From: Zobellia barbeyronii
GTDB lineage: Bacteria > Bacteroidota > Bacteroidia > Flavobacteriales > Flavobacteriaceae
Length of the DNA: 64,000 nucleotides
Assembly: GCF_018603515.1 (NCBI RefSeq)
Contig: NZ_JACATN010000001.1
Location: 372,001 to 436,000 of the forward strand
Direction of reading: 5' to 3'
Shown: piece by piece, positions 9,406 to 28,237 of the stretch
Position numbering within the stretch: position 1 is the stretch's first letter
Layout of the letters: each line of letters begins with the position of its first letter
Translations under genes and position numbers: made by a program
The notes under the pieces: generated by a model
Told to the model about the DNA's origin: nothing
Databases searched by the model: none
The model's input: only the letters and a program-made list of their open reading frames with translations

Positions 9406-9565
9406 AACTAGTGTGTTAAATTTTGGAGGTAAGAAACCCACCCCTGTCTAATACTACAACTCTAACGAGAGTTTCATAACCTAAACACAAAGTGTTCAAC
9501 CCAAACTTATGGCTTTATTTTGCTATTTTAGCTCATCCACTACTATTGTACTACACCCACCCATT

Positions 9566-12500: not shown

Positions 12501-13291
12501 TTAACCAAAAACTACCGTCAGACAAAAATAATATTCTCGTCTTCTGTAATGACAATGACTACCTACCCGCATTTCAACTGTTTGACGACCAAGAAAACAA
12601 TTTGGTTTTTGAACGAACCACCTCTGCTATTTCTTCAGCTATAAAACATGTAAACATACATTGTTTAGTCCTATACAACATTCCTGTTGACGAACAGCTG
12701 GTACAACTCTTTCATCTTATAAAGAACAGTACCGCACAAACTACCTTACCAATTATTTATATATCGGAAGATATTGATCACTCCTTACGCGTACAGACTA
12801 CTGAGCTTGGCGTAGATGCCTTTATTCAATTGCCTGTTAGTAAATCTTTTATTCAAAGTAAAACAACAAAACTCTTATCCGTAAGGAAAAAATATGCGAG
12901 CAATACATCTAAACAGGTATTTTTTGAAACACCATTTGATGACGACAAAAGACTATCCGTAAATGAAAAACTAGCAAAAAAAGCATTAAACCTTATAAAC
13001 GAAAACCTGAACAATCCCTCATTTAACGTTCAAAAGCTACAGGAAACCCTGTTCGTATCAAAAATAAAATGCTACCGAGCATTTAAAGAAGTATTGCAAC
13101 AGTCTCCTTCTGACGTGATTATAAAACTACGTCTACAAAAAGCGGAATATCTTCTCAAAAACCACACCTTAAACATTTCAGAAATTAGTATGGAATGTGG
13201 CTTTAACGACCCCAAATACTTTAGCCGCCTTTTTAAGAAAAATTTTGAGTGCAGCCCAAAAGAATATCGTGCAAGAATAATGAAGGTTTAA
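9566..13291 (+). CDS. HTCS-type sensor/AraC regulator with degenerate kinase and receiver
   Basis: 1241 residues from the ATG at 9566, chosen because it starts a clear signal peptide (to about residue 23, SASGQ); an upstream ATG at 9509 adds 19 non-signal residues. Order: beta-propeller Reg_prop repeats (about 25-600), Y_Y_Y domain, one membrane segment (about 678-702), a coiled coil, then HisKA, ATPase and receiver remnants and an intact AraC-type helix-turn-helix at the C-terminus. The H-box His is replaced by Ser773 (LSEFKEP), the ATPase N and G boxes are not recognisable, and the receiver Asp is Asn1038 (LYNIP). So it cannot signal by the usual phosphorelay. It sits directly upstream of susC and likely controls it. 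Confidence 0.85.
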   Translation: MRPLRFLFFAFFIMFFSKSASGQNIKFKTLSTNDGLSNNSITDLVSDNDGMLWIATWDGLNSYNGNTFTVYKHDLKTAKSIAGNNISKLKKDRKGNIWVFTNDKKISKYIGNNKFQNFVFDATPQNLMVTQNGTIGVRTDKTSYEFIDGEFKTTQFVEEKKEDESILKGILLNKYPDVIINDVLKDKSGHIWYATRRNGVYIIPNNTDNRNNEQVDHYFHDLYDPHSFNSDEVEKIYEDAFGNIWLGHKDGGLSMAYSGSEQITTIVPHPNKYPHLPNETIRAITTDFDSRIWLGYYTKGIFHFDQKKKCFVKYNLNEAHDNSDWDRIRSLYTTSSGEIWVGTYAGIIRIKNNGYQLYESKNIAELPSDRNYSFKEDNEGQLWVACWSGVAKFDFKTDKFQYFKGQEALSPYNIRNIEYADGELLISTENEGLILLDISTGALKNITVNNGISGNSVYSSIKDKQSGYYWIASLGGISIYDKNEGLIHHISEKEGLPSHMVYGLLLDSDKVWISTTKGIATIDRNNFSVTSLNMDEGWQAREFSEGAYYQDRKGTLFFAGINGLNHFSPATLNITKELPKLKVHIDDTRDFSEGIIKSYKDNSIDITIEPVVFTKDPNNKILYRLLGYDDSFQNFNNSPIHYTNLPDGEYIFEVKNSLAKDLAFKSIPIIINKPFYKTTWFFILLLVTSFITFTSWVLVRNQNIAKNQKKLELKIEERTDTINRQKERLIKVNHTLDEKNKEINRQREELLNSYHQLKNEDFEIEKFKTFVLSEFKEPVSKIIESSKELIENERLKQNINSESNKLITLLSEWDYLTNSKDIGELKKSATKIKQTIKVLIDGLSIHAKKSKVNLDYSLDIQDQWIELDSLRFKLFFKYLFNDILKYISKSSYLKVVVRTKDDSLELLIESNSKVLADNFFSIQHYSPYYKAANTLLTAMDGTLTVNNENNLTILAYLPIKVVDTQNNKIEEVLWKHLDLNQKLPSDKNNILVFCNDNDYLPAFQLFDDQENNLVFERTTSAISSAIKHVNIHCLVLYNIPVDEQLVQLFHLIKNSTAQTTLPIIYISEDIDHSLRVQTTELGVDAFIQLPVSKSFIQSKTTKLLSVRKKYASNTSKQVFFETPFDDDKRLSVNEKLAKKALNLINENLNNPSFNVQKLQETLFVSKIKCYRAFKEVLQQSPSDVIIKLRLQKAEYLLKNHTLNISEISMECGFNDPKYFSRLFKKNFECSPKEYRARIMKV

Positions 13292-13292
13292 T

Positions 13293-13336
13293 GTTACCTA
13301 CATATTATTACAATGTTACGCTATAATTATTGTAAC
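13293..13336. promoter_or_regulatory. 11-bp phased (G/A)TTA array upstream of susC, candidate Pho box
   Basis: Four tetramers at exactly 11-bp spacing: GTTA at 13293, ATTA at 13304, GTTA at 13315 and ATTA at 13326. The array begins just after the HTCS stop codon and ends 133 nt before the susC start. PhoB/PhoP boxes in other bacteria are direct repeats with an 11-bp period (for example TTAACA-type repeats in Bacillus). The same pattern occurs upstream of the PhoB-like gene in this window. A 7-bp inverted repeat (13308-13314 with 13329-13335) overlaps the same bases and is an alternative reading. Confidence 0.45.
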
Positions 13337-13469: not shown

Positions 13470-16400
13470 ATGAAAAAAGTATACTTAGTTCTGCTAATAG
13501 CATTAGGATGTATTTCCTTTTCTTATTCGCAAGTAACAGTAAAGGGAACGGTAGTTTCCGAAACGGACGGAATGCCCATTCCATCTGCATCAATTATTTT
13601 AAAGGGAAATACCCAAGTAGGCACTTCTACTGATTTTGACGGTAATTTCTCATTGAACCTTTCCGAAGAAAACGGAACGCTCGTAGTTTCTTCTTTGGGT
13701 TTTGCTACCAAAGAAATAGCATATTCTGGAGATGACACTATAAACATATCTATGAGCGTAGAGGCCAGTTTCTTAGATGAAGTAGTACTTATAGGCTACG
13801 GTTCATCTAGAAAAGGGGATTTAACCACGGCCATTGCCACAGTAAACAATGTAGAAAGTATTGCTTCTAGGCCCGTATCCAATGTTACCGAGTTTTTACA
13901 GGGTAATGTTGCCGGTGTAACCGTAATGTCTCAAGGAGGAGACCCTACCGCTAGCGGTAACGTAGTTATTCGTGGACTCGGAACTTTTGCTAATGAAAGT
14001 CCACTTACTGTAGTAGATGGTGTACCTTATTACGGCCCTGCAATCAACCCTAATGACATAGCATCCGTTTCTGTTCTTAAAGATGCGGCATCTGCAGCAA
14101 TATATGGAGCTCAAGCTGCTTCGGGCGTTATCGTTATACAGACCAAAAAAGGAAAGACAGGCAAACCTCGTATAACAGTAGATTACTACGGTGGTATGCA
14201 AGAAGCAACAAACCTACCTACTCCGCTAACAGCCCTACAACAGTCTCAAGTTTACAATACGGCGGCTGATAATGCGGGAACCCCAAGACAGTCTGCTCAT
14301 GATGCAGAACAGAATCCTTACGGACAAGTAAACCGTACCAATTGGGTAGATGCTATTTTTAGACCTGCAGGCATCAACAATGCCAACGTAAATATTAGTG
14401 GCGCAGGAGAAAGCATGAATTACCTAACCTCTTTTGGATATACTAAAAGAGATGGCCTTTTAGAGGGAACAAGTTCTGAGCGCTATAATTTCAGAGTGAA
14501 ATCAGATTTTGACCTTTCCGATAAAATTAAAATAGGCGAAAACGTTTATTTCTCACGAACTGAAGCTGTAGGTACCAACACAGACAACCCATATTCCGGT
14601 ACTATTATAAATGCAATTTATATGCCTTCTGCTTCTCCAACACGTTATGCAGACGGAAGTTTTGCAGGTGTTGCTCCTGAAAGCCTTTCGCAATTTGCCG
14701 GGGCATACGGAGATGTTTATAACCCATTGGCCTTGCTATTGAGACCAACAACCTCTGCGCCTACCAACTTTTTGAATGCCAATGTCTTTTTAGAGTATAA
14801 TATTGTGAACGGTCTGTCTTTCAAAACAACTTATTCCTATAGTTACACGAATTCAGAATACAAAAGGTTTCAACCCAGAGTACCAGAACTTGGGCGTTCT
14901 AACCCCAACAACTACCTTGAACAAAGCAACGCAACCACCAACCGATGGGTATGGGACAATCAGCTAAGCTACAAGAAGTCATTTGGCGACCACAATCTTG
15001 ATGTTACCGCCATCTATTCCTCTCAGCATACTGATTTTGAAAAACTAACCAGTAAAGGAGAAGGTTTTAGTAACGAACAAGCTTTTAATCAGTATTTATC
15101 TAATGCTTCCGTTATACGGAACCCTAGCACGGAGGTGTATGAAGATGCATTGACATCCGCTATAGGAAGGGTAATGTATAATTACAAAAATCGTTATTTT
15201 ATTTCCGGCAGTATTAGAAGAGATATGACTTCTCGCTTGGCCGCAAACAACCAAGCGGACAACTTCCCTTCCGCTACAGTAGGTTGGAGGTTATCAGATG
15301 AATCTTTTTTTAATGTTGGCGCAATCAATGATTTAAAATTTAGAGCATCTTGGGGGCAGATTGGAAACATCAACTCTGTAGGTTACTATTCTTTTGATGT
15401 TCCGTTGAACACTACCGTAGTGACTATTGGCGAGGATGCATCATTTGATGATAAGGGTGCTTTTGTTGGAAAACAATCTAACCCAGATTTAAATTGGGAA
15501 GTATCTGAATCAATCAACTTTGGTCTGGACGCAGCTCTTTTCAACAACAGCTTAAGCCTTACTTTTGATTACTTTGAAAAAAGTACCAAAGGAATGATTC
15601 TTCCCGGTCTTGAAGATCTTAACCAAGGCACCAGTGCTGCCGATGTAAACGGTGGAGAAGTTAAAAACAATGGTTTTGAAATCTCCGCCAGCTATTCTAA
15701 CAAAATAGGGGATTTAGATTTTACCGTTAATGCCAACACAAGTGTTCTTGACAATGAATTGGTAAACCTTGACGGGTACAACAAAAGTGGTATAGATTTT
15801 ATTGCACATAGTGACAATGTTAGAGGCGTATTAAGGCCCTACCGTTCAGAAGTCAACAGAGCCCTATACTCGGTATACGTAGTGCCTCAAGTAGGTATTT
15901 TCCAAAACCAGGCAGAGATTGATGCTTATGCAAAAGATGGGGGCCTAATACAGCCCAATGCTCAACCTGGAGATTTCAAATTTACCGATAGTAATGATGA
16001 TGGTAAAATAGATGACAATGACAAGGTTTTCTACGATAGCTACCAACCAGATTTCACGTACAACTTTGGTTTGAATCTGAACTACAAGAACTTTGATTTA
16101 GGCATGTTGTTCCAAGGTGTTTCCGGTGTTGAAGTCTTTAACGGTTATAAGTTCTCTACTTACAATGCCTCACTATCAGGTTACAACCTAGATAACAGAG
16201 CATTAGATGCATGGTCTTCTTCCAATACAGGTGCAACTACACCTAGATTATCAACTAAAGACGATAATCAAAACTTTGGTCTGGCCTCTAGCTGGTATCT
16301 TGAAGATGCTTCGTATTTAAGAATGAAGAACGTTACGTTGGGTTACACTATAGATGACCGCATCATGCGTACTGTATTGCCTGGCTCGTCTTTACGTTTC

Positions 16401-16535
16401 TACATTTCTGCGGAAAACCTATTTACAATAACAGATTATACTGGTATTGACCCAGAGGTTGGCGGTAAAGGATTAGATATCGCCCGGTACCCTCTTTCTC
16501 GAACAATTACAGCAGGATTGTCTTTATCTCTTTAA
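13470..16535 (+). CDS. SusC/RagA-family TonB-linked outer-membrane transporter
   Basis: 1021 residues. Signal peptide ends near SYSQ (about 20), followed by a carboxypeptidase-regulatory-like domain (about 22-100), the SusC linker VVLIGYGSSRKGDL, a plug domain and a beta-barrel of normal SusC length ending in an aromatic-poor strand (TAGLSLSL). An EF-hand-like loop DSNDDGKIDDND is visible in the late barrel, as in many SusC proteins. It forms the outer-membrane channel that, with SusD as the lid, imports an oligomeric ligand using TonB energy. SusD follows after 19 nt. The ligand is not known; the neighbouring phosphodiesterase-phosphatase hints at a phosphorylated one. Confidence 0.95.
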   Translation: MKKVYLVLLIALGCISFSYSQVTVKGTVVSETDGMPIPSASIILKGNTQVGTSTDFDGNFSLNLSEENGTLVVSSLGFATKEIAYSGDDTINISMSVEASFLDEVVLIGYGSSRKGDLTTAIATVNNVESIASRPVSNVTEFLQGNVAGVTVMSQGGDPTASGNVVIRGLGTFANESPLTVVDGVPYYGPAINPNDIASVSVLKDAASAAIYGAQAASGVIVIQTKKGKTGKPRITVDYYGGMQEATNLPTPLTALQQSQVYNTAADNAGTPRQSAHDAEQNPYGQVNRTNWVDAIFRPAGINNANVNISGAGESMNYLTSFGYTKRDGLLEGTSSERYNFRVKSDFDLSDKIKIGENVYFSRTEAVGTNTDNPYSGTIINAIYMPSASPTRYADGSFAGVAPESLSQFAGAYGDVYNPLALLLRPTTSAPTNFLNANVFLEYNIVNGLSFKTTYSYSYTNSEYKRFQPRVPELGRSNPNNYLEQSNATTNRWVWDNQLSYKKSFGDHNLDVTAIYSSQHTDFEKLTSKGEGFSNEQAFNQYLSNASVIRNPSTEVYEDALTSAIGRVMYNYKNRYFISGSIRRDMTSRLAANNQADNFPSATVGWRLSDESFFNVGAINDLKFRASWGQIGNINSVGYYSFDVPLNTTVVTIGEDASFDDKGAFVGKQSNPDLNWEVSESINFGLDAALFNNSLSLTFDYFEKSTKGMILPGLEDLNQGTSAADVNGGEVKNNGFEISASYSNKIGDLDFTVNANTSVLDNELVNLDGYNKSGIDFIAHSDNVRGVLRPYRSEVNRALYSVYVVPQVGIFQNQAEIDAYAKDGGLIQPNAQPGDFKFTDSNDDGKIDDNDKVFYDSYQPDFTYNFGLNLNYKNFDLGMLFQGVSGVEVFNGYKFSTYNASLSGYNLDNRALDAWSSSNTGATTPRLSTKDDNQNFGLASSWYLEDASYLRMKNVTLGYTIDDRIMRTVLPGSSLRFYISAENLFTITDYTGIDPEVGGKGLDIARYPLSRTITAGLSLSL

Positions 16536-16554
16536 CTAAAAAACATCTAAAAAA

Positions 16555-18144
16555 ATGAAATTCAATAGAATAAAAACAATGAGTTTGCTAATAGGTTTCG
16601 CCGGCCTTAACCTAATTACATGCTCGGACGATTTTACAGAGGTCACCCCTTTAGGCAGCACCTCATACGCCAACTTTTGGGCTTCTGAACAAGACGCTTC
16701 GGAAGCGGTGAACACTATGTACGCCTATATGACAGATCAGGAAATGTTCTCCAGAGGATTCTTTTGGTACATTAATGCTTCCGATGACATGATTACGGGC
16801 CGTATTAAAGCTTCCGCGGATAATATCAAAGATTTCAACATAACAGGAGGCGAAGGTGGCTATACCTCAACATGCTACCCCAATAGCTACAAAGTTATTC
16901 GTAGGGCCAATGATGTTATTTTGAACATCCCAAATATGGACATCAGCGAAACACTAAAAAATCAATATTTGGGCGAGGCTTACTTTATGCGTGCTTTCAG
17001 TTATTTCTGGGTAGCTCATACCTACGGTGATGACGGAAACAACGGAGGCGTTCCTATTGTCACCGAAGCTAATATGAACGATGAACCTGGTAGCTACTCC
17101 AGACCTGCCAGTGTAGTTGAAAACTACAAACAGATAGAAGCAGATTTAATGAAAGCCGCAGAACTGTTACCATTGTTCACAGACTATTCATCCGAGAACT
17201 ATGGGCGTCCGCATAAAGATGCCGCATTGGCATATATGGCCAAAACCAATCTTTATTGGGCACAATATGACGCCGCTAGATATGCCGAAGTTGTAAAATA
17301 TGCGGATGCGGTTACCAATAGTGGTTCGGGAAGGGCATTGATCAATACGGGCAATCCATCTCAAGATTACCGTGAACTGCACAGCAACTTGAACAATTGG
17401 ACCAGCGAGTATATTTGGTCCGTAAATTCCGGAGTAGACAAAGGCAGTATCCTTACAGGGGTTATGCTCGAAAACAAAGGCTGGGGTAAATACAATGGTT
17501 GGGGCTATTACACTCCTTCCGAAGGCCTGTACAATGAATTTGAAGATGGTGATGCTCGAAAAGCTGTAACCATTTTGAATTTTGGTGATGATTTCACATT
17601 TTTTGGTGAGGCTAGAAGATACCAATCAGAAAACTCTTTATCTGGTTTTCAGTTCAACAAATACATGTACGAGTTTCAGTTCGAAAACCCTATTGGCACT
17701 TATCTCAATAGTAATGGCGATGACCCTTCTACTATTTACAATGTTCCTTTAATGCGCTACGCGGAAGTGTTGCTCATGAAGGCTGAAGCACTTATCATGG
17801 ATGGTAAAAATGGAGATGCTCCATTAAATATGGTTCGCGAAAGAGCTGGGCTTCCTACCATTACCAATGCAACCATGGTAGATTTAAAACATGAACGACG
17901 CGTTGAGCTTGCCGGTGAATTTGCCAACAGACATTTTGATTTAGTCCGCTGGGGCGATGCCGCAGAAACATATGCCGAGCCAATTTACGGACGTATTTAC
18001 ACAGATCGCTCCAACCCTGATTCGCCTTACACATCAGAAATTGTTTGGCCCACAAGAAATTTTGATGCTTCCTACATGAATGTTTGGCCCATACCCAGTA
18101 CAGTTATTGAATCATCTGGAATCCCCCAAAATAAAGGATGGTAG
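16555..18144 (+). CDS. SusD/RagB-family surface lipoprotein
   Basis: 529 residues. Lipoprotein signal with Cys at residue 23 (ITCSDD; the acidic residues after Cys fit surface export in Bacteroidota). N-terminal SusD-like part with EAVNTMYAYM and repeated helical hairpins (LGEAYFMRAFSYFW), C-terminal SusD/RagB domain with LMRYAEVLLMKAEAL, the HERRVELAGE motif and RHFDLVRWG, then VWPIPS near the end. It binds ligand and closes the SusC barrel. A strong hairpin with a short T tract lies just downstream, before the phosphatase gene. Confidence 0.95.
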   Translation: MKFNRIKTMSLLIGFAGLNLITCSDDFTEVTPLGSTSYANFWASEQDASEAVNTMYAYMTDQEMFSRGFFWYINASDDMITGRIKASADNIKDFNITGGEGGYTSTCYPNSYKVIRRANDVILNIPNMDISETLKNQYLGEAYFMRAFSYFWVAHTYGDDGNNGGVPIVTEANMNDEPGSYSRPASVVENYKQIEADLMKAAELLPLFTDYSSENYGRPHKDAALAYMAKTNLYWAQYDAARYAEVVKYADAVTNSGSGRALINTGNPSQDYRELHSNLNNWTSEYIWSVNSGVDKGSILTGVMLENKGWGKYNGWGYYTPSEGLYNEFEDGDARKAVTILNFGDDFTFFGEARRYQSENSLSGFQFNKYMYEFQFENPIGTYLNSNGDDPSTIYNVPLMRYAEVLLMKAEALIMDGKNGDAPLNMVRERAGLPTITNATMVDLKHERRVELAGEFANRHFDLVRWGDAAETYAEPIYGRIYTDRSNPDSPYTSEIVWPTRNFDASYMNVWPIPSTVIESSGIPQNKGW

Positions 18145-18175
18145 AAGTTAGTTCGTTAGTTTAGTTTTTTTTATG

Positions 18176-18205
18176 AAAGAGTGTCTCTTGATGAGACACT
18201 CTTTT
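18176..18205 (+). terminator. strong hairpin between susD and the phosphatase fusion
   Basis: Perfect 12-bp stem (18176-18187 with 18193-18204), 5-nt loop TTGAT, closing in a T run. It lies 31 nt after the susD stop and only 15 nt before the next start codon, so there is no room for a promoter after it. It either terminates most susCD transcripts or protects their 3' end, giving less phosphatase mRNA than susCD mRNA. Confidence 0.8.
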
Positions 18206-18219
18206 CTTAATTTTATGAT

Positions 18220-20028
18220 ATGTACAGATTTAAAACAAAGTTCTCTTTCTTATTCTTCCTTTTTTGCGTCACCATGCTTAAAGCACAGCAAAACAGAAAA
18301 ACATTAATTCATTCGCATAACGATTATCTTCAAAATGTACCGTTTTGGAAAGCTTATTCAAATGGACTTGATATTATGGAAGCCGATGTTTTTCTTAAAA
18401 ATGGCAAACTGAACATCACTCATACAGAGGCCGAAATTATTGAGGGCAACACATTACAAGTGCTTTACCTAGAACCTTTAGAATATGCTATTGAAAACCA
18501 TATAGGAGACCCAACTGGCCTTATGATAATGTTGGATATAAAGTCCGATGCCGGGCCTACTTTAAAAAAAATACTTTCCGTACTCAAAAAATATCCTGAA
18601 ATCACCTCAAGACCTGATTTAAAAATCGTCATTTCTGGGCATAGACCCAACCCTGAAACCTATGATTCCTACCCTGACTATGTTTATTTTGATCATCAAA
18701 AGCTAGAAAGCAACCTAGATCCTGATGATTGGAAAAAGGTAGCTTTTATAAGCGTTAATTTTAAAAACTATTCGGAATGGAACGGCAAAGGTAGACTCAC
18801 CCAAGAGGATTATAAAAATGTATCCGAAACTATAAAAAAAGCTCATGACCTCAACAAGCCTTTTCGTTTTTGGGGCACACCAGATTCCAATACTGCTTGG
18901 AAGGCCTTTTCAGATTTAGGTGTTGATATCATCAATACAAATATGCCCCATAAGACTGCCACTTACTTAAACTCCCTTGAAAAACGCACCTATAAAAATA
19001 CAGTAAACTCAGAAGTGTACCGTCCTACTTATGCCACGGACCAAAAAGACACGCTTATTAAAAATGTCATTCTGCTAATTGGTGATGGTAATGGTCTAAA
19101 CCAGATTTCATCAGCTATTTTGGCCAATGGAGGTGAACTTACCCTTTCGCAATTAAAGAGTATCGGTTTTCTAAAAACTCAATCTTCAGATGATTTTACT
19201 ACGGATTCGGCCGCGGCTGGTACAGCATTGGCTACAGGCACTAAAACCTACAACAGAGCTATTGGACTCAATCCGGAAAGGCAACCTATTGAGAACATGC
19301 CAGAGTTTTTTTCAAAACATAATTTTGTATCCGGCATCATAACTACCGATCATGTTACGGGAGCAACCCCCGCATCTTTCTTCGCACATCAAAAAGACCG
19401 TTCCGATACGGAGCTTATTGCTAACGACCTTTTAAAAAGTAACATTTCACTTTTTATAGGAGGAGGAGCTGAAGATTTTACATTCGATTGGAAAAAAACC
19501 GATTTCACGCTGCTGAACAATATTAGCGAAATAGGTAAAAATCAATCCGACAAAGTAGGTCATTTTCTTTCCGAAGGTGGTGTACCTAGTGTACTTGAAG
19601 GTCGTGACAACGCGCTTGCCATTGCAACAAAAAATGGTATCGACTTTTTGAATTCCAAGAACAAACCCTTTTTCTTAATGGTTGAGGCAGCCCAAATTGA
19701 TAGTAATGGACATTACAATAACGTAGGCGGTATTGTTACCGAAGGAATTGACTTTGATAGGGCCATTACCGAAGCAGTGAAATTTTCAGACGCATCAGGC
19801 AACACTTTGGTAGTTATTACCGCAGACCACGAAACCTCTGGTTTTAGCATTCCACAGGGCAATCTAAAAGAAAGTATAATTGAAGGAACTTTTACTACCT
19901 TCGACCACACCGCCACTATGGTTCCCATATTTGCTTATGGTCCACAATCGCAGTCTTTCCAAGGAATTTATGAAAACAGCGATTTATTTGAAAAGATCAA
20001 AAGAGCGCTTAACTTAGAGGGCAACTAA
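18220..20028 (+). CDS. fusion of PI-PLC-like/AIM6-type phosphodiesterase and alkaline phosphatase
   Basis: 602 residues with a signal peptide (to about 22, LKAQQ). Residues about 27-250 match PI-PLC-like phosphodiesterases of the AIM6 type: HSHNDY, then IMEADVF and NITHTEAE supply the His/Glu/Asp set. Residues about 285-600 are an alkaline phosphatase: LIGDGNG (metal Asp), TTDSAAAGT with the nucleophile Ser, DHVTGATPAS, QIDSNGH, TADHETSG and the late DHTATMVP His. Both halves keep their key residues. The pair would cut a phosphodiester and then strip the resulting monoester, releasing phosphate in the periplasm or outside. It sits between susCD and a DUF5009 gene (13 nt gap) and is probably read through the upstream hairpin. 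Confidence 0.88.
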   Translation: MYRFKTKFSFLFFLFCVTMLKAQQNRKTLIHSHNDYLQNVPFWKAYSNGLDIMEADVFLKNGKLNITHTEAEIIEGNTLQVLYLEPLEYAIENHIGDPTGLMIMLDIKSDAGPTLKKILSVLKKYPEITSRPDLKIVISGHRPNPETYDSYPDYVYFDHQKLESNLDPDDWKKVAFISVNFKNYSEWNGKGRLTQEDYKNVSETIKKAHDLNKPFRFWGTPDSNTAWKAFSDLGVDIINTNMPHKTATYLNSLEKRTYKNTVNSEVYRPTYATDQKDTLIKNVILLIGDGNGLNQISSAILANGGELTLSQLKSIGFLKTQSSDDFTTDSAAAGTALATGTKTYNRAIGLNPERQPIENMPEFFSKHNFVSGIITTDHVTGATPASFFAHQKDRSDTELIANDLLKSNISLFIGGGAEDFTFDWKKTDFTLLNNISEIGKNQSDKVGHFLSEGGVPSVLEGRDNALAIATKNGIDFLNSKNKPFFLMVEAAQIDSNGHYNNVGGIVTEGIDFDRAITEAVKFSDASGNTLVVITADHETSGFSIPQGNLKESIIEGTFTTFDHTATMVPIFAYGPQSQSFQGIYENSDLFEKIKRALNLEGN

Positions 20029-21271: not shown

Positions 21272-23320
21272 TTATTTAGTTGCCCAAGCAAAGATGGCAA
21301 CATCAACAGCTGTACCGTTGAAAACATCATCTTCAGCAGTAGTAAGAGCTGTTTCATCAACAATTACGTTTGCAAGAGGTCCTGCATCCTTCATATCAAC
21401 GTTAGTATCGTAACCAGTAAGACTAACGTTAGTTAAAGTTGCACCAGAAGTAGCTTTAAATTGAAGACCAGTTCCACCAACAGTAGAAACAGCAGTAAAG
21501 TCAATCAATTTTGGATTACCATTAGCTTTATCAGCTTCAACAGCAGTAGAGAATCCTTCTTTACTATGAACAACATAAGAAGTAGTTACTGTACCGTTCC
21601 AACCTTCTGTCCAGTCAATAGAATCATCTTGGTTGTTCTCAAAGTAAAGGTTAGAAGCAGAAACAGTTCCACCAAAGAACTCAACACCGTCATCATCACC
21701 ATCTATCATAGCAACGTTGTCAATAGTAGTTCCAGAACCTACAGCATACAATGTAAGACCATTGTATTGAGACTCAGCATTAATCTGCGCTCCAGCATTC
21801 TCTATAATCAAGTAGGTAATAGAACCAGAGTTGTCATCATCTGCAGTACCACCGTATTTAAAGTTACTTACTTCAGCAGTAGCATCTACACCAGCTGTTG
21901 TAGTAGCATCTCCCAAAATAACTAAGCCACCCCAATCACCAGCGTTACCGTTGGTAGATGTCATTACAACTGGGTTTGCTTCAGTACCTTCAACCATAAT
22001 CATACCTCCTTTTTGAACAACTATAAAAGTTTCAGTTTCATCACCAGACTCAACTTGAGCACTGATTTTAGTTCCAGCAGGAATAGTTAAAGTAGCTCCG
22101 GACTCAACACTTAAGCTTGTAGACAAAAGGTAGCTTATAGAAGCATCTAATGTACGATCGCTAGTTACAGTTCCTGTTAAAATACTGCTTTCACCTGCAG
22201 AAGTATCAGTATTCACCCAGTCAAAAATTGCAACATCTACACTTGCATTGTTGTTGTAAGTACTTTCTGGATTTCCAGCTTCACCTTCAATAATAACGTT
22301 AGCCAAAGGACCATCATCTTTCATATCTATAGAAGTATCATAACCGCTCAAAGAAAGACCAGTGATTGTTGCACCTGAAGTAGCTTTGAACTGCAAAGCA
22401 GTACCACCAACAGTTGAAACAGCTGTAAAGTTTATCAATTTAGGGTTTCCGTTATCCTTATCTGCTTCAACAGCAGTAGAGAATCCTTCTTCTGTATGTA
22501 ATACGTATGCATTTGTAACCGTACCGTTCCAACCTTCTGTCCAGTCAATAGAATCATCTTGGTTGTTTTCAAAGTAAAGGTTAGAAGCAGAAACAGTTCC
22601 ACCGAAGAACTCAACACCATCATCTTCACCATCTATCATAGCAACGTTGTCAATAGTAGTTCCAGAACCTACAGCATAAAGTGTAAGACCGTTATATTGA
22701 GACTCTGCATTGATCTGAGCACCAGCATGCTTAATGATTAAATACTTAATAGAACCTGAGTTGTCATCATCAGCAGTACCACCATATTTGAAGTTACTTA
22801 CCTCAGCAGTAGCATCTACACCAGCTGTTGTAGTAGCATCTCCTAAAATAACCAAACCACCCCATTCTCCTGGCTCACCACCAGTAGATTGCATAGTTAC
22901 AGGTGCAGCTTCAGTACCTTGAACATCAATTTCACCACCTTTTTGAACAACAATAAAAGTTTCGGTCTCATCACCAGACTCAACTGTTGCGTTAATAACT
23001 GTACCTGCAGGAATTATTAATTTACCCCCAGCTTCTATACTGTAGCTTTTTTCTAAACTATAAGTTTTAGTAGCGTCAAGTGTTCTCTCTTCTGTTAAAA
23101 CGCCCGTTAATTTTGTTCCTTCTTCTGACGCATCACACGCAGTACAAGATCCACCGCAATCTACACCAGTTTCATCACCGTTTTTAACACCATCGGTACA
23201 CGTAGGTGTTTCCCCGTCAGGACCTGCATCCGGAGCATTGTCATCACTACTACAGCTCGCAAGGGTAATAGCAGCGACCATTGCCAATACTTTTACAAAA
23301 TTTGTTGTTTTCAATTTCAT
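21272..23320 (-). CDS. lipoprotein of two tandem 310-residue repeats, beta-helix-like
   Basis: 682 residues. Lipoprotein signal with Cys23 (LASCSSDD, acidic residues after Cys fit surface export). Residues about 41-63 form a Cys-rich motif (CTDGVKNGDETGVDCGG then SCTAC), seen in other flavobacterial lipoproteins. Then two nearly identical units, about 71-380 and 381-682, offset by exactly 310 residues. Each starts with a TLDA...IPAGT segment and contains VVQKGG, WGGLVILGDA and FFGGTVSASNLYFENNQDDSIDW, with short hydrophobic strands and Asn/Asp-Gly turns typical of right-handed beta-helices. No enzyme motif is recognised. It follows the TonB receptor by 50 nt and is probably its surface partner. 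Confidence 0.85.
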   Translation of the reverse strand: MKLKTTNFVKVLAMVAAITLASCSSDDNAPDAGPDGETPTCTDGVKNGDETGVDCGGSCTACDASEEGTKLTGVLTEERTLDATKTYSLEKSYSIEAGGKLIIPAGTVINATVESGDETETFIVVQKGGEIDVQGTEAAPVTMQSTGGEPGEWGGLVILGDATTTAGVDATAEVSNFKYGGTADDDNSGSIKYLIIKHAGAQINAESQYNGLTLYAVGSGTTIDNVAMIDGEDDGVEFFGGTVSASNLYFENNQDDSIDWTEGWNGTVTNAYVLHTEEGFSTAVEADKDNGNPKLINFTAVSTVGGTALQFKATSGATITGLSLSGYDTSIDMKDDGPLANVIIEGEAGNPESTYNNNASVDVAIFDWVNTDTSAGESSILTGTVTSDRTLDASISYLLSTSLSVESGATLTIPAGTKISAQVESGDETETFIVVQKGGMIMVEGTEANPVVMTSTNGNAGDWGGLVILGDATTTAGVDATAEVSNFKYGGTADDDNSGSITYLIIENAGAQINAESQYNGLTLYAVGSGTTIDNVAMIDGDDDGVEFFGGTVSASNLYFENNQDDSIDWTEGWNGTVTTSYVVHSKEGFSTAVEADKANGNPKLIDFTAVSTVGGTGLQFKATSGATLTNVSLTGYDTNVDMKDAGPLANVIVDETALTTAEDDVFNGTAVDVAIFAWATK
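21586..23110. repeat. 930-bp intragenic tandem duplication
   Basis: The two halves of the lipoprotein gene are near-identical in DNA in many stretches with a constant 930-bp offset: for example GTACCGTTCC at 21591-21600 and again at 22521-22530, with about 90 following bases almost the same. The nucleotide likeness shows a recent duplication or ongoing gene conversion. The repeat ends given are approximate. Confidence 0.85.
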
Positions 23321-23370: not shown

Positions 23371-26199
23371 TTAAAATTTGTAGCTAAGACCTAAACTAAT
23401 GTCCATACCTGTTGTGTATGAAAGCACAGTCTGTTCTGTTTCTATTTCAGTTATCGGGTTACGAACTAACTGTGTTTGCTTAATTTCAGGATTCAGAAGA
23501 TTTGAACCTGTTAGGCTTATTTTTATGTGCTCACCTATCTCTTTACTGATAAGTGCGTTTAGGACAACAAATCCTTTTTCTACAACTGCATCGTCATAAA
23601 AAATATCTCTGTTTGTCTGGTCTGTAGGAACTCCTAAAGAGTAAATTTTATCTGAAGCATAGTTTGCAGAAAGTGATGCTGCAAAAGGATTTTCTGTAGC
23701 AGCCTCAAAATTTAGGCTTGTATTAAAAATCCAATCCGATGCACCTTGCAGGTCAGACTCTGTAATTCCCTTGTATTGAAAACTTCTTACCAGTGTACCG
23801 TTTTCGTTATATATTTCTTTAAGATCTTGTTGGTGCCACATGCGTGTTACATTAAGAACCATATTTAAATCATATCCAGATTCTGAACCGTCATCATCAT
23901 TAAGTATTGGCTTTACTAAGTCTAGTTTTGTTTCGGCTTCAAGACCAAAAATTTCAGCTTTCTCACCAGAGTTGAAATAAGAAAATATACCTGCAGAACC
24001 TGTTTCTCTTACTCTGTTTATTGGGTCAGAAATATCTTTATAGAAAGCAGCAACAGAAACCAATTGGCCAGCAGAAGGAAAATACTCCCATTTAAGATCT
24101 AGGTTAATATCTTTAGAAGCAACCAAATCTGGATTACCACGGCTAATTTGCCCTGTTGGAGACACATAACTAAAAGGGGCTATTTCTTTAAACTCCGGTA
24201 ATGTTATTGTGCGGCTTACTGCCAAACGTAATGCGTGAAGTTCGTTTACCGTGTACTTAATATTTAAACTAGGATAGAAATTACTGTAGTCTTGATTGCT
24301 TTCGCCCGTTCTTGGTGAAAGGTTACCAATATCGTAGGTTACTTTTATCTCATCACTTTGGTACCGGATACCAGCGTCAAAATTCCATTTATCAAGTCCA
24401 ACATTAAAGGCAAAAAATGCAGCCTTAGAATCCAAAGTACCTAAGTACAAATCTTTTCGCTCTCCATTGGCATTAGACCCCAAAAGGTTAATCTCTAAAA
24501 GACCTGCATCAAAATTAGATTGACGGAAAATACTACCTAAGTTATCAATAGAAGGTGGGTTTATGGCGTTGGTACTTTGCTCTTCCACACCAACAAACTC
24601 TGAACTAAAATCTCTTTCTTTATTTCTATAAGAAACCCCAAAATTCATCTTAAAGGTTCTGGTCTCCTCATCTATAATTTTTAGCTCATCTTTGATATAA
24701 CCACTATACTCTATATCCTCAATATTCTGGCTAGATTTACGCTGTTGAAAACCACCGTTTCTACCAAGTTGCACAAAATTACCGTCTGGATCAAAGTTTA
24801 CCTCGTTACGAATACGGTTAGGTTCATCGGCTTTTAAAAAGTTATAACCACCTGCCCAATGCAGTGTATTCTTTTCTCCAAGTTGGTGTCTACCTATTAA
24901 TTGGGTAACTAACAACCTTGTTTGTTTGGTGTTCTGGTCTCTTATGAATTGAAACAAGCCTTCAGATGCCGCAGTCTCTTCAAAAATAGTAGCCTCACCA
25001 TTACGGCCTCCTTCAAAAACATATTCGTCTAATTTATTTACGAAGAATGTGCTTGACTTAATCTTGTTCTTGTCATTGGCCAAGTAGGTAATATCTAGAA
25101 GACCTGTGTTTACAATTTTCTTGCGAAATGTGGTTGCATCTGTAATGGTATCATCAATAAAATTTGAACGATATTGTCTAAACAAACCTTCTCTATGTTC
25201 AAAAGAACGTGAATGAGATGCACTAAGAAAAACCGAAAGTTTATCGGCAAACTTTTTACCAGCTGCGATAGACATAGAATAATCCATTGGGTTATCCTGT
25301 TGAAGTGTATTCCAACCTTGGTTGGTTATCAATTGCTGCGTATTCAGGTTTTGATCATAAAAACCGAAATCCGTATTTTTTGAATTCTGTGAAACCTTAA
25401 AGTTATCGTAGACTCCGCTTTTTGCTACATTAGAGTTAACCCCTCCTGAAACACCAACTGAAAGTTCGCTTGAACCAGAAAGCTCTCTAGAAGTAATATT
25501 AACCGCTCCGGAAGCTTCATCCGCAGAACCATCTACAGCAAAAGTCTTGCTAATACTTACATTTTGCAGAACACGTGTTGGAAAAAGTCCAAGGTTAATG
25601 TTCTTTTTATCAATATCATCAGAAGGAATTGGCAGACCATTTAAAGTCGTAGACAAGTATCTATCTCCCAAGCCTCTAACAAATACATCTCCAGAAGCTT
25701 CACTACTAGTAACACCGGAAATTTTAGTAGTAGCAGTAGCAGCATCGGACACCCCAATTTTAGCAAGCTCTACAGCCCCAATACTTTCTTTTATTTCTGT
25801 CGCTTTTTTCTGATCAAGCAAAAGTGCTGTTTCAGAATCTTTACGTGCTGTAGTCATTACAACAACCTCATCTAACGAAACACCTTCCGAGGCGCTCATA
25901 GGCACATTAACTGTTGTTACTTTTCCTGCTTCAATTATTACATCTGCAATATCTACTGTCTCATATCCTAAATAACTATAGGATACTATATAAGTACCAG
26001 GCTCAAGTCCTGAAATTTCATAAAGTCCATCAAAGTCAGAAGTAGTACCAATTGTTGTACCTTTAATAACTACGTTGGCAAATGGAAGGGGATCATCATT
26101 AAGTTCTTTATCAGTAAGTGTACCTACTATGCTTCCCGTATCTTGGGCGCTGAGTTGAAAAGAAAAAAGTAATAGTGCAATAGAATATATTAGTCTCAT
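23371..26199 (-). CDS. TonB-dependent outer-membrane receptor
   Basis: 942 residues. Signal peptide to about residue 19 (LSAQ), carboxypeptidase-regulatory-like domain (about 24-105, with TDKELNDDPLPFANV and the SYLGYET end), a plug domain (KISGVTSSEASGDVFVRGLGDRYLSTTLNG) and a barrel ending in SLGLSYKF, whose terminal Phe fits BAM recognition. It is not SusC-like in its linker or length. The lipoprotein gene follows on the same strand after 50 nt, making a receptor/lipoprotein pair. It is divergent from the PhoB-like gene, and the 11-bp phased array lies between them, so it may be phosphate-controlled. Confidence 0.92.
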   Translation of the reverse strand: MRLIYSIALLLFSFQLSAQDTGSIVGTLTDKELNDDPLPFANVVIKGTTIGTTSDFDGLYEISGLEPGTYIVSYSYLGYETVDIADVIIEAGKVTTVNVPMSASEGVSLDEVVVMTTARKDSETALLLDQKKATEIKESIGAVELAKIGVSDAATATTKISGVTSSEASGDVFVRGLGDRYLSTTLNGLPIPSDDIDKKNINLGLFPTRVLQNVSISKTFAVDGSADEASGAVNITSRELSGSSELSVGVSGGVNSNVAKSGVYDNFKVSQNSKNTDFGFYDQNLNTQQLITNQGWNTLQQDNPMDYSMSIAAGKKFADKLSVFLSASHSRSFEHREGLFRQYRSNFIDDTITDATTFRKKIVNTGLLDITYLANDKNKIKSSTFFVNKLDEYVFEGGRNGEATIFEETAASEGLFQFIRDQNTKQTRLLVTQLIGRHQLGEKNTLHWAGGYNFLKADEPNRIRNEVNFDPDGNFVQLGRNGGFQQRKSSQNIEDIEYSGYIKDELKIIDEETRTFKMNFGVSYRNKERDFSSEFVGVEEQSTNAINPPSIDNLGSIFRQSNFDAGLLEINLLGSNANGERKDLYLGTLDSKAAFFAFNVGLDKWNFDAGIRYQSDEIKVTYDIGNLSPRTGESNQDYSNFYPSLNIKYTVNELHALRLAVSRTITLPEFKEIAPFSYVSPTGQISRGNPDLVASKDINLDLKWEYFPSAGQLVSVAAFYKDISDPINRVRETGSAGIFSYFNSGEKAEIFGLEAETKLDLVKPILNDDDGSESGYDLNMVLNVTRMWHQQDLKEIYNENGTLVRSFQYKGITESDLQGASDWIFNTSLNFEAATENPFAASLSANYASDKIYSLGVPTDQTNRDIFYDDAVVEKGFVVLNALISKEIGEHIKISLTGSNLLNPEIKQTQLVRNPITEIETEQTVLSYTTGMDISLGLSYKF

Positions 26200-26248
26200 T
26201 ATCTAGTTTTATAACGCCGCAAATAACGCCACGTGAAGTAAAAGACGA

Positions 26249-26303
26249 GTTACGTGTATGTTAAACCTTTATTGCAATAAGGTTAGCTTAATGTTACTAT
26301 ATT
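26249..26303. promoter_or_regulatory. 11-bp phased GTTA array, candidate Pho box, between TonB receptor and PhoB-like gene
   Basis: Five units of exactly 11 bp: GTTA at 26249 and 26260, ATTG at 26271, GTTA at 26282 and 26293. Two further GTT-containing sites (26312 and 26322) are off by a few bases from this phase. The array ends 19 nt before the -33 element of the PhoB-like gene and is 50-104 nt upstream of the receptor start. Direct repeats of 11-bp period are the hallmark of PhoB/PhoP binding sites, so autoregulation of phoBR and control of the receptor operon are plausible. Confidence 0.55.
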
Positions 26304-26322
26304 AAATCAACGTTAAGAGACG

Positions 26323-26351
26323 TTGGTATGTCGGTATTATATTTACTTTTG
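26323..26351 (+). promoter_or_regulatory. Bacteroidota-type promoter of the PhoB-like gene
   Basis: TTG at 26323-26325, an 18-nt spacer, and TACTTTTG at 26344-26351, matching the TTG/TAnnTTTG consensus. It ends 26 nt before the ATG at 26378 and lies just after the phased GTTA array. Confidence 0.65.
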
Positions 26352-26377: not shown

Positions 26378-27064
26378 ATGAAAAAGAAAGACATTAAGAT
26401 ATTACTTGTTGACGATGAGCCAGATATACTAGAAATAGTAGGATACAATCTTACTAACGAGGGCTACCAAGTCTTTACTGCCAAAAACGGAGTAGAAGGC
26501 GTTGCCATGGCTAAGAAAAAGCAACCACATTTAATTATCTTGGATGTAATGATGCCAGAAATGGACGGTATTGAAGCCTGCGAAACTATTCGTAGCACAG
26601 CCGGTCTTGAAAATTCTATCATTACCTTTCTTACCGCTCGTGGCGAAGATTATTCCCAAGTAGCCGGTTTTGACGCGGGTGCAGATGATTATATTACAAA
26701 ACCGATTAGACCAAAAGTTTTGGTCAGTAAGGTAAAGGCCTTATTGAGAAGGTTAAAAGAAGAAAACGCCCAACAAGAAGATATTGTACAGGTTGGTAAT
26801 ATCATTATCAATAGAGAAGAGTACAAAATAGTAAACGATGGTAAAGAAATTGTTCTGCCTAGAAAGGAATTTGAACTTTTATCTCTACTAACTTCAAAAC
26901 CAAGTAAAGTTTTCAAGAGAGAAGTTATTCTTGATAGAGTCTGGGGTAATGAGGTAGTTGTTGGTGGTCGTACCATTGATGTTCACATAAGAAAACTACG
27001 TGAAAAAATTGGCGAAGACCATTTTAAAACCGTAAAAGGGGTTGGTTATAAGTTCGTTCTTTAA
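26378..27064 (+). CDS. OmpR/PhoB-family response regulator
   Basis: 228 residues. Receiver domain with the acidic pair in VDDEPD, the phospho-acceptor Asp56 (LIILDVMMPEMDG) and the conserved Lys in ITKPIRP, then a winged-helix DNA-binding domain (about 130-228) with RKEFELL, the recognition region GRTIDVHIRKLREKI and GVGYKF. Complete and apparently active. The paired kinase gene follows after 111 nt. In Flavobacteriia this arrangement next to a TonB receptor is commonly annotated PhoB-like; the phosphate role is inferred from the kinase architecture, the phased array and the nearby phosphatase. Confidence 0.92.
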   Translation: MKKKDIKILLVDDEPDILEIVGYNLTNEGYQVFTAKNGVEGVAMAKKKQPHLIILDVMMPEMDGIEACETIRSTAGLENSIITFLTARGEDYSQVAGFDAGADDYITKPIRPKVLVSKVKALLRRLKEENAQQEDIVQVGNIIINREEYKIVNDGKEIVLPRKEFELLSLLTSKPSKVFKREVILDRVWGNEVVVGGRTIDVHIRKLREKIGEDHFKTVKGVGYKFVL

Positions 27065-27175: not shown

Positions 27176-28237
27176 ATGGCTGCTGCTAAGCTTAGAAAGT
27201 CATATCGCTTTGCGTTAAGGTCTTCCTTAATGGTTACCGCAGTGTTTATTTCGCTTTTGGCATTATTCCTATATCTCTTTGGAAAATTAGACTGGACGAT
27301 GATTCTTATATCCGCTCTGTTGCTTTTCCCTATTGCATTTATAGTAATGCAAATACGCATAGAAAGATTCATTTACCGCCGTATAAAGAAAATTTACGAT
27401 GATGTTGCCATGTTAGAAACATCATCCATTACCACGGGTCCGATTACTACGGACATGAAAACCCTTACCGAAGAAATAGAGAAATTTGCAAAAGATAAAC
27501 GCGTAGAGATAGATACCCTAAAGATTAGGGAAGAGTACCGAAAAGACTTTCTAGGTAATGTATCTCACGAACTTAAAACACCGCTTTTTACAGTACAAGG
27601 CTATATAGAGACGTTATTAGACGGGGCTCTGGAGGACAAAAATGTACGCCGTAAGTACTTACAACGTGCTAGCAAAGGGGTAGATCGCCTTATCTATATT
27701 GTTAAGGACCTTGATATGATTACCAAACTAGAAGTTGGAGACCTCAACCTAAAAAGAGAGTCTTTTGACATTATTGAACTTATTCAAAATGTATTTGATC
27801 TTCTAGAGATGAAATCGGCAAAAAAGAGAATCATTCTCACTTTTGACATGGAGTACGATAAACCTGTTATGGTATACGCCGATAAGGAAAAGATAGAACA
27901 GGTACTGACCAACTTTCTCGTAAATTCCATAAAATATGGACAATCTAACGGTACTACCGAGGTAAGCGTAGAAAACTTGATTAAAAATAAGGTTATAGTA
28001 AGGGTAACTGATAATGGCGAAGGTATTCCCAAACAGCATATACCACGATTGTTTGAACGTTTTTATAGAGTAGATAAAAGTGGTAGCCGTAGCGAAGGCG
28101 GCTCTGGTCTAGGCCTTGCTATTGTAAAACATATTGTTGAAGCCCATGGAGAAAAGATATATGTTGAAAGTGAAATAGGCGTAGGTTCTGAATTTTCATT
28201 TACTTTGGAAAAATCAGAGAGTAAAAAAATCGATTAA
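27176..28237 (+). CDS. PhoR-like sensor histidine kinase
   Basis: 353 residues. Two membrane segments (about 16-36 and 40-60) with almost no periplasmic loop, as in PhoR, then a cytoplasmic linker, the H-box with His131 (GNVSHELKTPL), the N-box NFLVNSIKYG and the G boxes DNGEGIP and GSGLGLAIV. It lacks a recognisable periplasmic sensor, so the signal is probably sensed inside or through a partner such as the Pst/PhoU system, which is not in this window. The cognate regulator gene lies 111 nt upstream. A TAATTTTG -7-like element at 27106-27113 may give it its own promoter. Confidence 0.92.
   Translation: MAAAKLRKSYRFALRSSLMVTAVFISLLALFLYLFGKLDWTMILISALLLFPIAFIVMQIRIERFIYRRIKKIYDDVAMLETSSITTGPITTDMKTLTEEIEKFAKDKRVEIDTLKIREEYRKDFLGNVSHELKTPLFTVQGYIETLLDGALEDKNVRRKYLQRASKGVDRLIYIVKDLDMITKLEVGDLNLKRESFDIIELIQNVFDLLEMKSAKKRIILTFDMEYDKPVMVYADKEKIEQVLTNFLVNSIKYGQSNGTTEVSVENLIKNKVIVRVTDNGEGIPKQHIPRLFERFYRVDKSGSRSEGGSGLGLAIVKHIVEAHGEKIYVESEIGVGSEFSFTLEKSESKKID

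Follow-up and report, generated by a model that had tools for sequence, protein, structure and literature searches.

The 64,000-nucleotide stretch of the Zobellia barbeyronii genome analysed here (the window) includes a locus in which a TonB-dependent receptor, followed by a lipoprotein-like protein, and a response regulator, followed by a histidine kinase, are encoded divergently (Table 1). The regulator has the receiver and Trans_reg_C domains of a PhoB-like member of the OmpR family, and it stands beside the kinase that matches PnpS and PhoR. Its two best NCBIfam matches are TIGR02154 and NF053854, though at scores below the curated cut-offs (214.4 vs 296.2 and 209.3 vs 270); because it falls short of these PhoB equivalog thresholds, we call it PhoB-like. 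The kinase is also below the curated cut-offs of its profiles (249.2 vs 400 and 242.2 vs 334.2). A search of this genome with the regulator as query gave 57 first-look candidates, 19 of them scored, and only one at E <= 1e-70. The lipoprotein-like protein has no Pfam or NCBIfam match, and by position it is the counterpart of the FII lipoprotein of F. johnsoniae.

Table 1. Features of the regulator-receptor locus and of the candidate second target in the window
Feature	Position	Strand	Basis or remark
Second phased array, GTTA-ATTA-GTTA-ATTA	13293-13329	+	Upstream of SusC-SusD-alkaline phosphatase operon
PUS-type operon, putative second target (SusC 13470-16535, SusD 16555-18144)	13470-20028	+	Domains
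Alkaline phosphatase with GDPD_2, third gene of SusC-SusD operon	18220-20028	+	
Lipoprotein-like protein 3' of receptor	21272-23320	-	Homologous to 21-member lipoprotein cluster
Divergent TonB-dependent receptor (CarbopepD_reg_2, plug, barrel)	23371-26199	-	Domains
Receptor promoter -7 element, GTTATTTG	26220-26227	-	Fixed offsets; sole window match of two-unit pattern
Unit 1, TTAC (GTAA on +)	26238-26241	-	Proximal to receptor promoter; TTTACA slot in 128-site consensus
Unit 2, TAAC (GTTA on +)	26249-26252	-	Exact letters, orthologue offsets, 128-site consensus
Unit 3, TAAC (GTTA on +)	26260-26263	-	Exact letters, orthologue offsets, 128-site consensus
Unit 4, weak, CAAT (ATTG on +)	26271-26274	-	Slot degenerate over 128 sites too
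Unit 5, TAAC (GTTA on +)	26282-26285	-	With unit 6, pair kept upstream of phoB
Unit 6, TAAC (GTTA on +)	26293-26296	-	With unit 5, pair kept upstream of phoB
Second 11-bp pair, ATTAAATN4GTTAA, phoB-specific	26301-26316	+	ATTA 26301, GTTA 26312; register differs from array
Probable phoB -7 element, TATATTTA	26338-26345	+	Near-constant distance 25-27 from GTTAA
Alternative phoB -7 element, TACTTTTG	26344-26351	+	Near-constant distance 31-33 from GTTAA
PhoB-like response regulator (receiver, winged helix)	26378-27064	+	Pfam and NCBIfam domains
PhoR-like histidine kinase	27176-28237	+	Best NCBIfam matches PnpS and PhoR

An earlier, sequence-only reading of this DNA had drawn attention to five tetramers at 11-bp intervals between the two divergent genes, four of them GTTA and an intermediate one ATTG. 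Their positions are exact, the five slots spanning 26249-26296. Five is an undercount, as a conserved sixth in-phase unit, GTAA, is found at 26238, and the ATTG is not a random flaw, the corresponding slot being consistently weak at other sites. On the receptor strand the repeats read TAAC, with TTTAC as the promoter-proximal unit.

With 18 of 20 letters, the array has the highest five-slot 11-bp GTTA score on either strand of the window; the next unrelated scores are 15, at 13293 and 51377, and at other periods from 5 to 22 no five-slot GTTA series exceeds 16 letters. A score of 18 was reached in one of 4000 dinucleotide shuffles of the 178-bp intergenic region, and with both tetramer and period (5-22) left free, four of five copies were obtained in 6 of 1500 shuffles. 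By itself the array is only modestly improbable and, in 64 kb, proves little; it is therefore conservation that decides.

Conservation upstream of the regulator and of the receptor

Of the 149 family genomes, 141 have a match to the regulator at E <= 1e-70. Upstream regions were compared at 107 loci, i.e., 110 loci (80 named contigs and 30 further genome loci) less a duplicate (L101, identical to L005) and two with less than 200 bp upstream (L014 and L044). Distances between GTTA tetramers in these regions peak at 11 (83 cases), 33 (57), 44 (42) and 22 (27), with further peaks at 19 (33), 30 (23) and 52 (21), and each remaining distance up to 60 occurs at most 7 times. The reversed tetramer, ATTG, has no 11-bp peak in the same 107 regions (2 pairs). 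The sequence-only reading had named loss of the phased tetramers in orthologous regions as evidence against a Pho box; the comparison was made, and no such loss was seen, at least three in-phase GTTA units being present in 44 of the 107 regions vs 1 of 535 shuffled sequences. These include 41 of 70 Flavobacteriaceae-like loci and 3 of the 37 remaining ones, and the array is present in Maribacter, Flavobacterium, Kordia and Croceivirga records, among others.

The array is also kept at a fixed distance from the receptor promoter. GCAAA, the complement of TTTGC in the receptor -7 element, occurs within 300 bp in 72 of the 107 loci, and relative to it GTAA is found at offset 19 (25 instances) and GTTA at offsets 30 (38), 41 (24), 63 (28) and 74 (37), while the weak slot, offset 52, has a single GTTA instance. 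In the window, the two-unit pattern TAAYN7TWACN14TTTG has its sole match at 26252-26220, with TTTG 14 nt past unit 1 and 20 nt ahead of the receptor start.

On the phoB side, the pair GTTA-N7-GTTA is retained in 31 of the 35 loci where a divergent receptor was detected. Of the 72 where none was, 33 have it, an upper bound for target-free loci because some of the 72 have a divergent gene of the lipoprotein type. Compared with the canonical pair on the receptor side, the one facing phoB is reversed. The last GTTA precedes TAnnTTT[AG] by 42-46 in 19 of 45 distances at the divergent-receptor loci and by 50-52 in 18; where no receptor was detected, a -7-like element follows at 42-45 in 17 of 43 distances, with the remaining 26 anywhere from 21 to 76. 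The second 11-bp pair, written as TTAAATN4GT[TA]AA, is kept in 39 of 107 loci. The phoB -7 element had been placed at TACTTTTG, which does recur at its own distance from GTTAA; the overlapping TATATTTA also recurs and is the probable element, and some Flavobacterium loci (L038-L041, inspected by eye) keep only TATATTTA. Measured from the last GTTA at loci with a divergent receptor, the two candidates recur at 44-46 (TATATTTA) and 50-52 (TACTTTTG).

The composite GTTAN7GTTAN5TTAAATN4GTTAA was tried as a genome-wide box and rejected. With up to three mismatches, it gave 43 matches vs 64 for its reverse in four genomes, and since there is no excess over the reversed control, we take it as phoB-specific and not as a regulon box. 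In the same four genomes the perfect composite occurs once each in Z. barbeyronii and a sister species, at phoB, and with one mismatch at one place each in the other two (G149 and G150). In the Z. barbeyronii genome alone, up to three mismatches gave 8 matches vs 2 reversed.

A promoter pattern and its candidate regulon

We searched a draw of 149 family genomes with the three-unit pattern TAAY-N7-TAAY-N7-TWAC-N14-TTTG, and found 128 sites in 94 of them, vs 18 sites for the reversed pattern and 14 for a pattern with 10-bp spacing (13 for the reverse of the latter). The pattern is missing from 55 of the 149 genomes and occurs once in that of Z. barbeyronii. All 128 distinct sites (30 loci and 98 stretches) were examined. 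The N14 distance to TTTG is fixed in them by the search pattern itself; the 33 bases 5' of the pattern were free to vary, and they have TAAC at -33 (0.81/0.77/0.76/0.72), TAAC at -22 (0.76/0.82/0.80/0.73), and the slot at -11 is degenerate (T-n-A-Y). This profile is that of the array in the window, six units with a weak fourth. The complete consensus over the 128 sites is TAAC-N7-TAAC-N7-(weak)-N7-TAAY-N7-TAAC-N6-TTTACA-N9-TTTCTTTG, in which TTTCTTTG is the receptor-type -7 element, and the start codon lies at a median of 23 nt past the -7 in the receptor cluster. No conserved TTG appears in this consensus between the array and the -7 element, at the place where a -33 element would be expected.

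Downstream frames were grouped by blastp (single linkage, E 1e-8), and cluster representatives only were scanned against Pfam. The sites precede 73 receptor-like proteins, 21 lipoproteins, 11 porins, 4 metallophosphoesterases (PlcP-like) and 14 singletons, with no frame after 5 sites. Seventy-two of the downstream proteins match the receptor of the window, and all 21 members of the lipoprotein cluster match its 21272-23320 protein; 14 of the 73 receptor-like proteins, judged by length, are of a short CarbopepD_reg type (118-136 aa). The singletons include a PBP-like PstS-type protein, a phosphate-selective porin (Porin_O_P) and an Exo_endo_phos protein. Altogether, 112 of the 128 sites precede genes for receptors, lipoproteins, phosphate-selective porins, PlcP-like, PstS or phosphatase-fold proteins, and the other 16 precede unrelated genes or none, which is close to the chance level (18 in the reversed control).

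Only 20 of the 128 sites are found less than 1.5 kb from phoB, and one more at 5 kb; two sit in a genome without a phoB match, and 105 are far from phoB (on another contig or more than 10 kb away). The motif therefore follows its target genes. Not every phoB-linked site faces a receptor: in at least four (L292, L327, L329, L338) the gene is of the lipoprotein type. As a separate observation, four loci (L227, L236, L246 and L247, the first of these Pfam-scanned) have CarbopepD_reg-type proteins of 125-133 aa, without a barrel, under a Pho-type promoter of their own, and in L236 the next gene is that of a receptor, again with a site of its own.

A wider set consisted of 198 genomes of the class, 6 of them from the same family. 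It gave 40 sites vs 19 reversed, or 34 vs 19 outside the family, a small excess and weaker than the one within it. Twelve of 25 outside-family loci examined precede telling genes: three PhoB homologues in genomes of other families (63-65% identical to the regulator of the window), two PstS-type proteins, a Na/Pi cotransporter with a PhoU domain, a polyphosphate kinase (Ppk), a Porin_O_P protein, a PlcP-like phosphoesterase and three lipoprotein homologues of the 21272-23320 protein. In three of those twelve (L353, L365, L374) the frame begins 157-197 nt on, not 17-42. The other 13 loci precede other genes (three of them receptor-like) or none.

In the window itself, a weight-matrix scan singles out one place besides 26249, the array at 13293, which ties with 51377 in the five-slot letter count; the matrix alone is noisy, its maxima reaching 22.8 among 48 control stretches, each of 3 kb. 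The 13293 array is in GTTA orientation, about 100 bp from its -7 and beside a gene for an AraC-type regulator. By eye, phased RTTA units are seen upstream of seven close orthologues of the SusC gene (L143-L149): L149 shows two clear ones, L143 and L147 three, and the rest four. The more distant homologues L150 and L151 are uninformative, their matches beginning at query residue 20-21 inside longer frames. Given the distance of its array from the -7 and the adjacent regulator gene, the SusC operon is a less certain target, possibly under dual control. TGAAAC-type direct repeats about 21 bp apart, between 13293 and 13470, also recur in several orthologues (by eye), and are a possible candidate site of the adjacent Reg_prop/AraC regulator (9509-13291). 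A GTTA-oriented four-unit pattern with one mismatch was discarded as too noisy (26 matches vs 11 in the control, two genomes).

Known phosphate-related genes were also inspected directly. PhoX, present in 10 of 30 genomes, showed no clear array at any of the loci scanned (10 of the 11 matches), although it is among the most strongly induced genes of F. johnsoniae (PMC8115612). The two-unit promoter pattern is absent from 18 phytase loci taken with 1.5-kb flanks (phytase is present in 17 of 38 genomes). PstS (TIGR02136) was matched in 3 of 20 family genomes. Of five PstS loci over the cut-off, L163 has a box directly upstream and L164 one upstream of the preceding gene; in G037 there is a site on the same strand, some 2 kb upstream; and in L166 and L167 phased TAAC units are followed, as judged by eye, by near-miss -7 elements. 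No TIGR02136 match was found in Z. barbeyronii and 16 others of the 20, and outer-membrane systems may therefore carry more of the load; PhoX (PF05787) and BPP phytase (PF02333) have no match in the Z. barbeyronii genome either. Two further arrays, both TAAC-oriented with one mismatch, are worth recording: one in Z. barbeyronii (C32:751698) directly before a Phytase-like (PF13449) gene, and one in the sister species at the end of a FecR gene, before an STN-containing SusC gene.

Interpretation and relation to known Pho boxes

The array had been proposed to be a Pho box controlling both phoBR and the divergent receptor operon. As regards the Pho box, comparative sequence evidence favors the proposal: the direct repeats have the 11-bp period, and a pattern derived from them finds genes of the phosphate-starvation type in many family genomes, recurring before genes of phosphate acquisition. 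Very probably, then, the array is the operator of the neighboring PhoB-like regulator. Counting against this are the scores of the regulator below the PhoB cut-offs, the PhoX loci without a clear array, the 55 genomes that lack the exact pattern, the noise of the weight matrix, the reversed orientation of the phoB-facing pair and of the 13293 array, the small excess outside the family and the absence of significant PhoR induction in F. johnsoniae. As regards the targets, the canonical geometry toward the divergent receptor agrees with the claim, and toward phoB the array presents a reversed pair.

Upon phosphate starvation PhoR would phosphorylate PhoB, and dimers of PhoB would line up head to tail along a single face of the helix, as many as three of them filling the six half-sites. 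Units 1-2 may substitute for the -33 element and bring RNA polymerase to the receptor promoter. Units 5-6, which present GTTA-N7-GTTA toward phoB, about 42-46 bp from its -7 in many loci, could account for autoregulation of phoB, in which the phoB-specific pair at 26301-26316 would assist. The chances seem evenly divided on a broader proposal, a Bacteroidota-wide class of Pho promoters, in which PhoB dimers on up to six half-sites (the fourth weak) take the place of the -33 element and work directly with the Bacteroidota housekeeping sigma factor at a TTTCTTTG -7, one array here serving two divergent promoters, in canonical orientation toward the receptor and reversed toward phoB.

Several other explanations have to be weighed. 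Chance phasing in AT-rich intergenic DNA would draw on the shuffles with free tetramer and period, by which some such array is expected in 64 kb, but conservation of phase and promoter distance across genera, and 128 sites vs 14-18 in the controls, refute it, and its probability is negligible. A different regulator of the OmpR/PhoB family, for example an ArcA-like one, might bind the array, and the regulon would then not be the phosphate regulon. The Riemerella PhoP motif resembles that of ArcA (PMC9603813), so that a motif alone does not name its regulator, and the genome has other candidates (57 at first look, only one at E <= 1e-70). We nevertheless consider this improbable: the array adjoins phoB in many Flavobacteriaceae, in three genomes from other families it stands before a PhoB homologue, it marks porin, PstS, Ppk, Na/Pi and PlcP-like genes, and the low-phosphate receptors of F. 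johnsoniae are reported to respond to depletion of phosphate and not to iron or nitrogen limitation (PMC8115612).

The array could also serve the divergent receptor only, with the adjacent phoB transcribed from an unrelated promoter. In its favor, the canonical orientation and spacing aim at the receptor, and in F. johnsoniae the induction of PhoB falls well short of that of the receptor (3.06 vs 8.02; PMC8115612). Yet the phoB-side pair persists in 33 of the 72 loci where no divergent receptor was detected (with 17 of 43 distances at 42-45), and the second element in 39 of 107. We regard a receptor-only function as rather unlikely, though less so than the other two explanations.

If the array is indeed the operator of the PhoB-like regulator, a working consensus for the Bacteroidota Pho box would make phosphate regulons predictable from genome sequences across a phylum that is common in the sea, in soil and in the gut. 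Receptors and lipoproteins that are still uncharacterised could then be attributed to phosphate scavenging, and the receptor promoter would lend itself to the study of activation where no conserved -33 element is present.

The published low-phosphate induction of the F. johnsoniae PhoBR locus fits the Pho box interpretation. Upon phosphate depletion its receptor is induced by a log2 of 8.02, the FII lipoprotein by 9.91 and PhoB by 3.06, with no significant change in PhoR (0.76) and OprP (-1.3) (PMC8115612). For the low-phosphate receptors of this species, induction is reported upon depletion of phosphate alone, and limitation for iron or nitrogen did not elicit it. The PUSII of F. johnsoniae resembles the SusC-SusD-alkaline phosphatase operon of the window; the words Pho box, motif and promoter are absent from the main text (PMC8115612). 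F. panici, with a regulator 75% identical to that of the window, has a receptor divergent from the regulator, a 361-aa frame in the kinase position and Porin_O_P, which is the gene order of the F. johnsoniae locus (receptor, regulator, porin).

In the literature consulted, mainly open-access papers, we found no consensus for a Bacteroidota Pho box besides the core from Riemerella anatipestifer. There, DAP-seq of PhoP gave 583 peaks with TTTAACA as the most conserved nucleotides, one of the binding places being upstream of its own operon, and the motif is highly similar to that of E. coli ArcA (PMC9603813). TTTAACA is the same core as in the units described here; the available part of that report describes no 11-bp array or promoter geometry (PMC9603813). 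PhoB of Bacteroides fragilis is a Bacteroidota PhoB with a bound promoter, that of pstC, shown by gel shift with a 512-bp fragment, within which the available text does not locate a box; the main text contains neither "motif" nor "consensus" nor "binding site" (PMC3547664). Putative PhoB sites have been predicted upstream of plcP clusters in marine bacteria, with no consensus given in the portion available (PMC4796936), and plcP is one of the gene types found here.

Outside the phylum, two systems bear comparison. The E. coli PHO box repeats replace the -35 element, about one turn from the -10, and the Bacillus subtilis PhoP box has 11-bp repeats with a TTAACA-like core and several units per promoter. 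The array described here differs from the latter in phylum, sigma factor and targets, among which receptors and lipoproteins dominate. In E. coli, a winged-helix regulator of the OmpR family binds head to tail to the PHO box, a series of 11-nt direct repeats whose core differs between species (PMC4415409). The direct repeats and the 11-bp period are shared by the flavobacterial array; unlike in E. coli, however, its core is TAAC/TTTACA and not CTGTCAT, the units number up to six, and they are combined with a Bacteroidota -7 element, TTTCTTTG.
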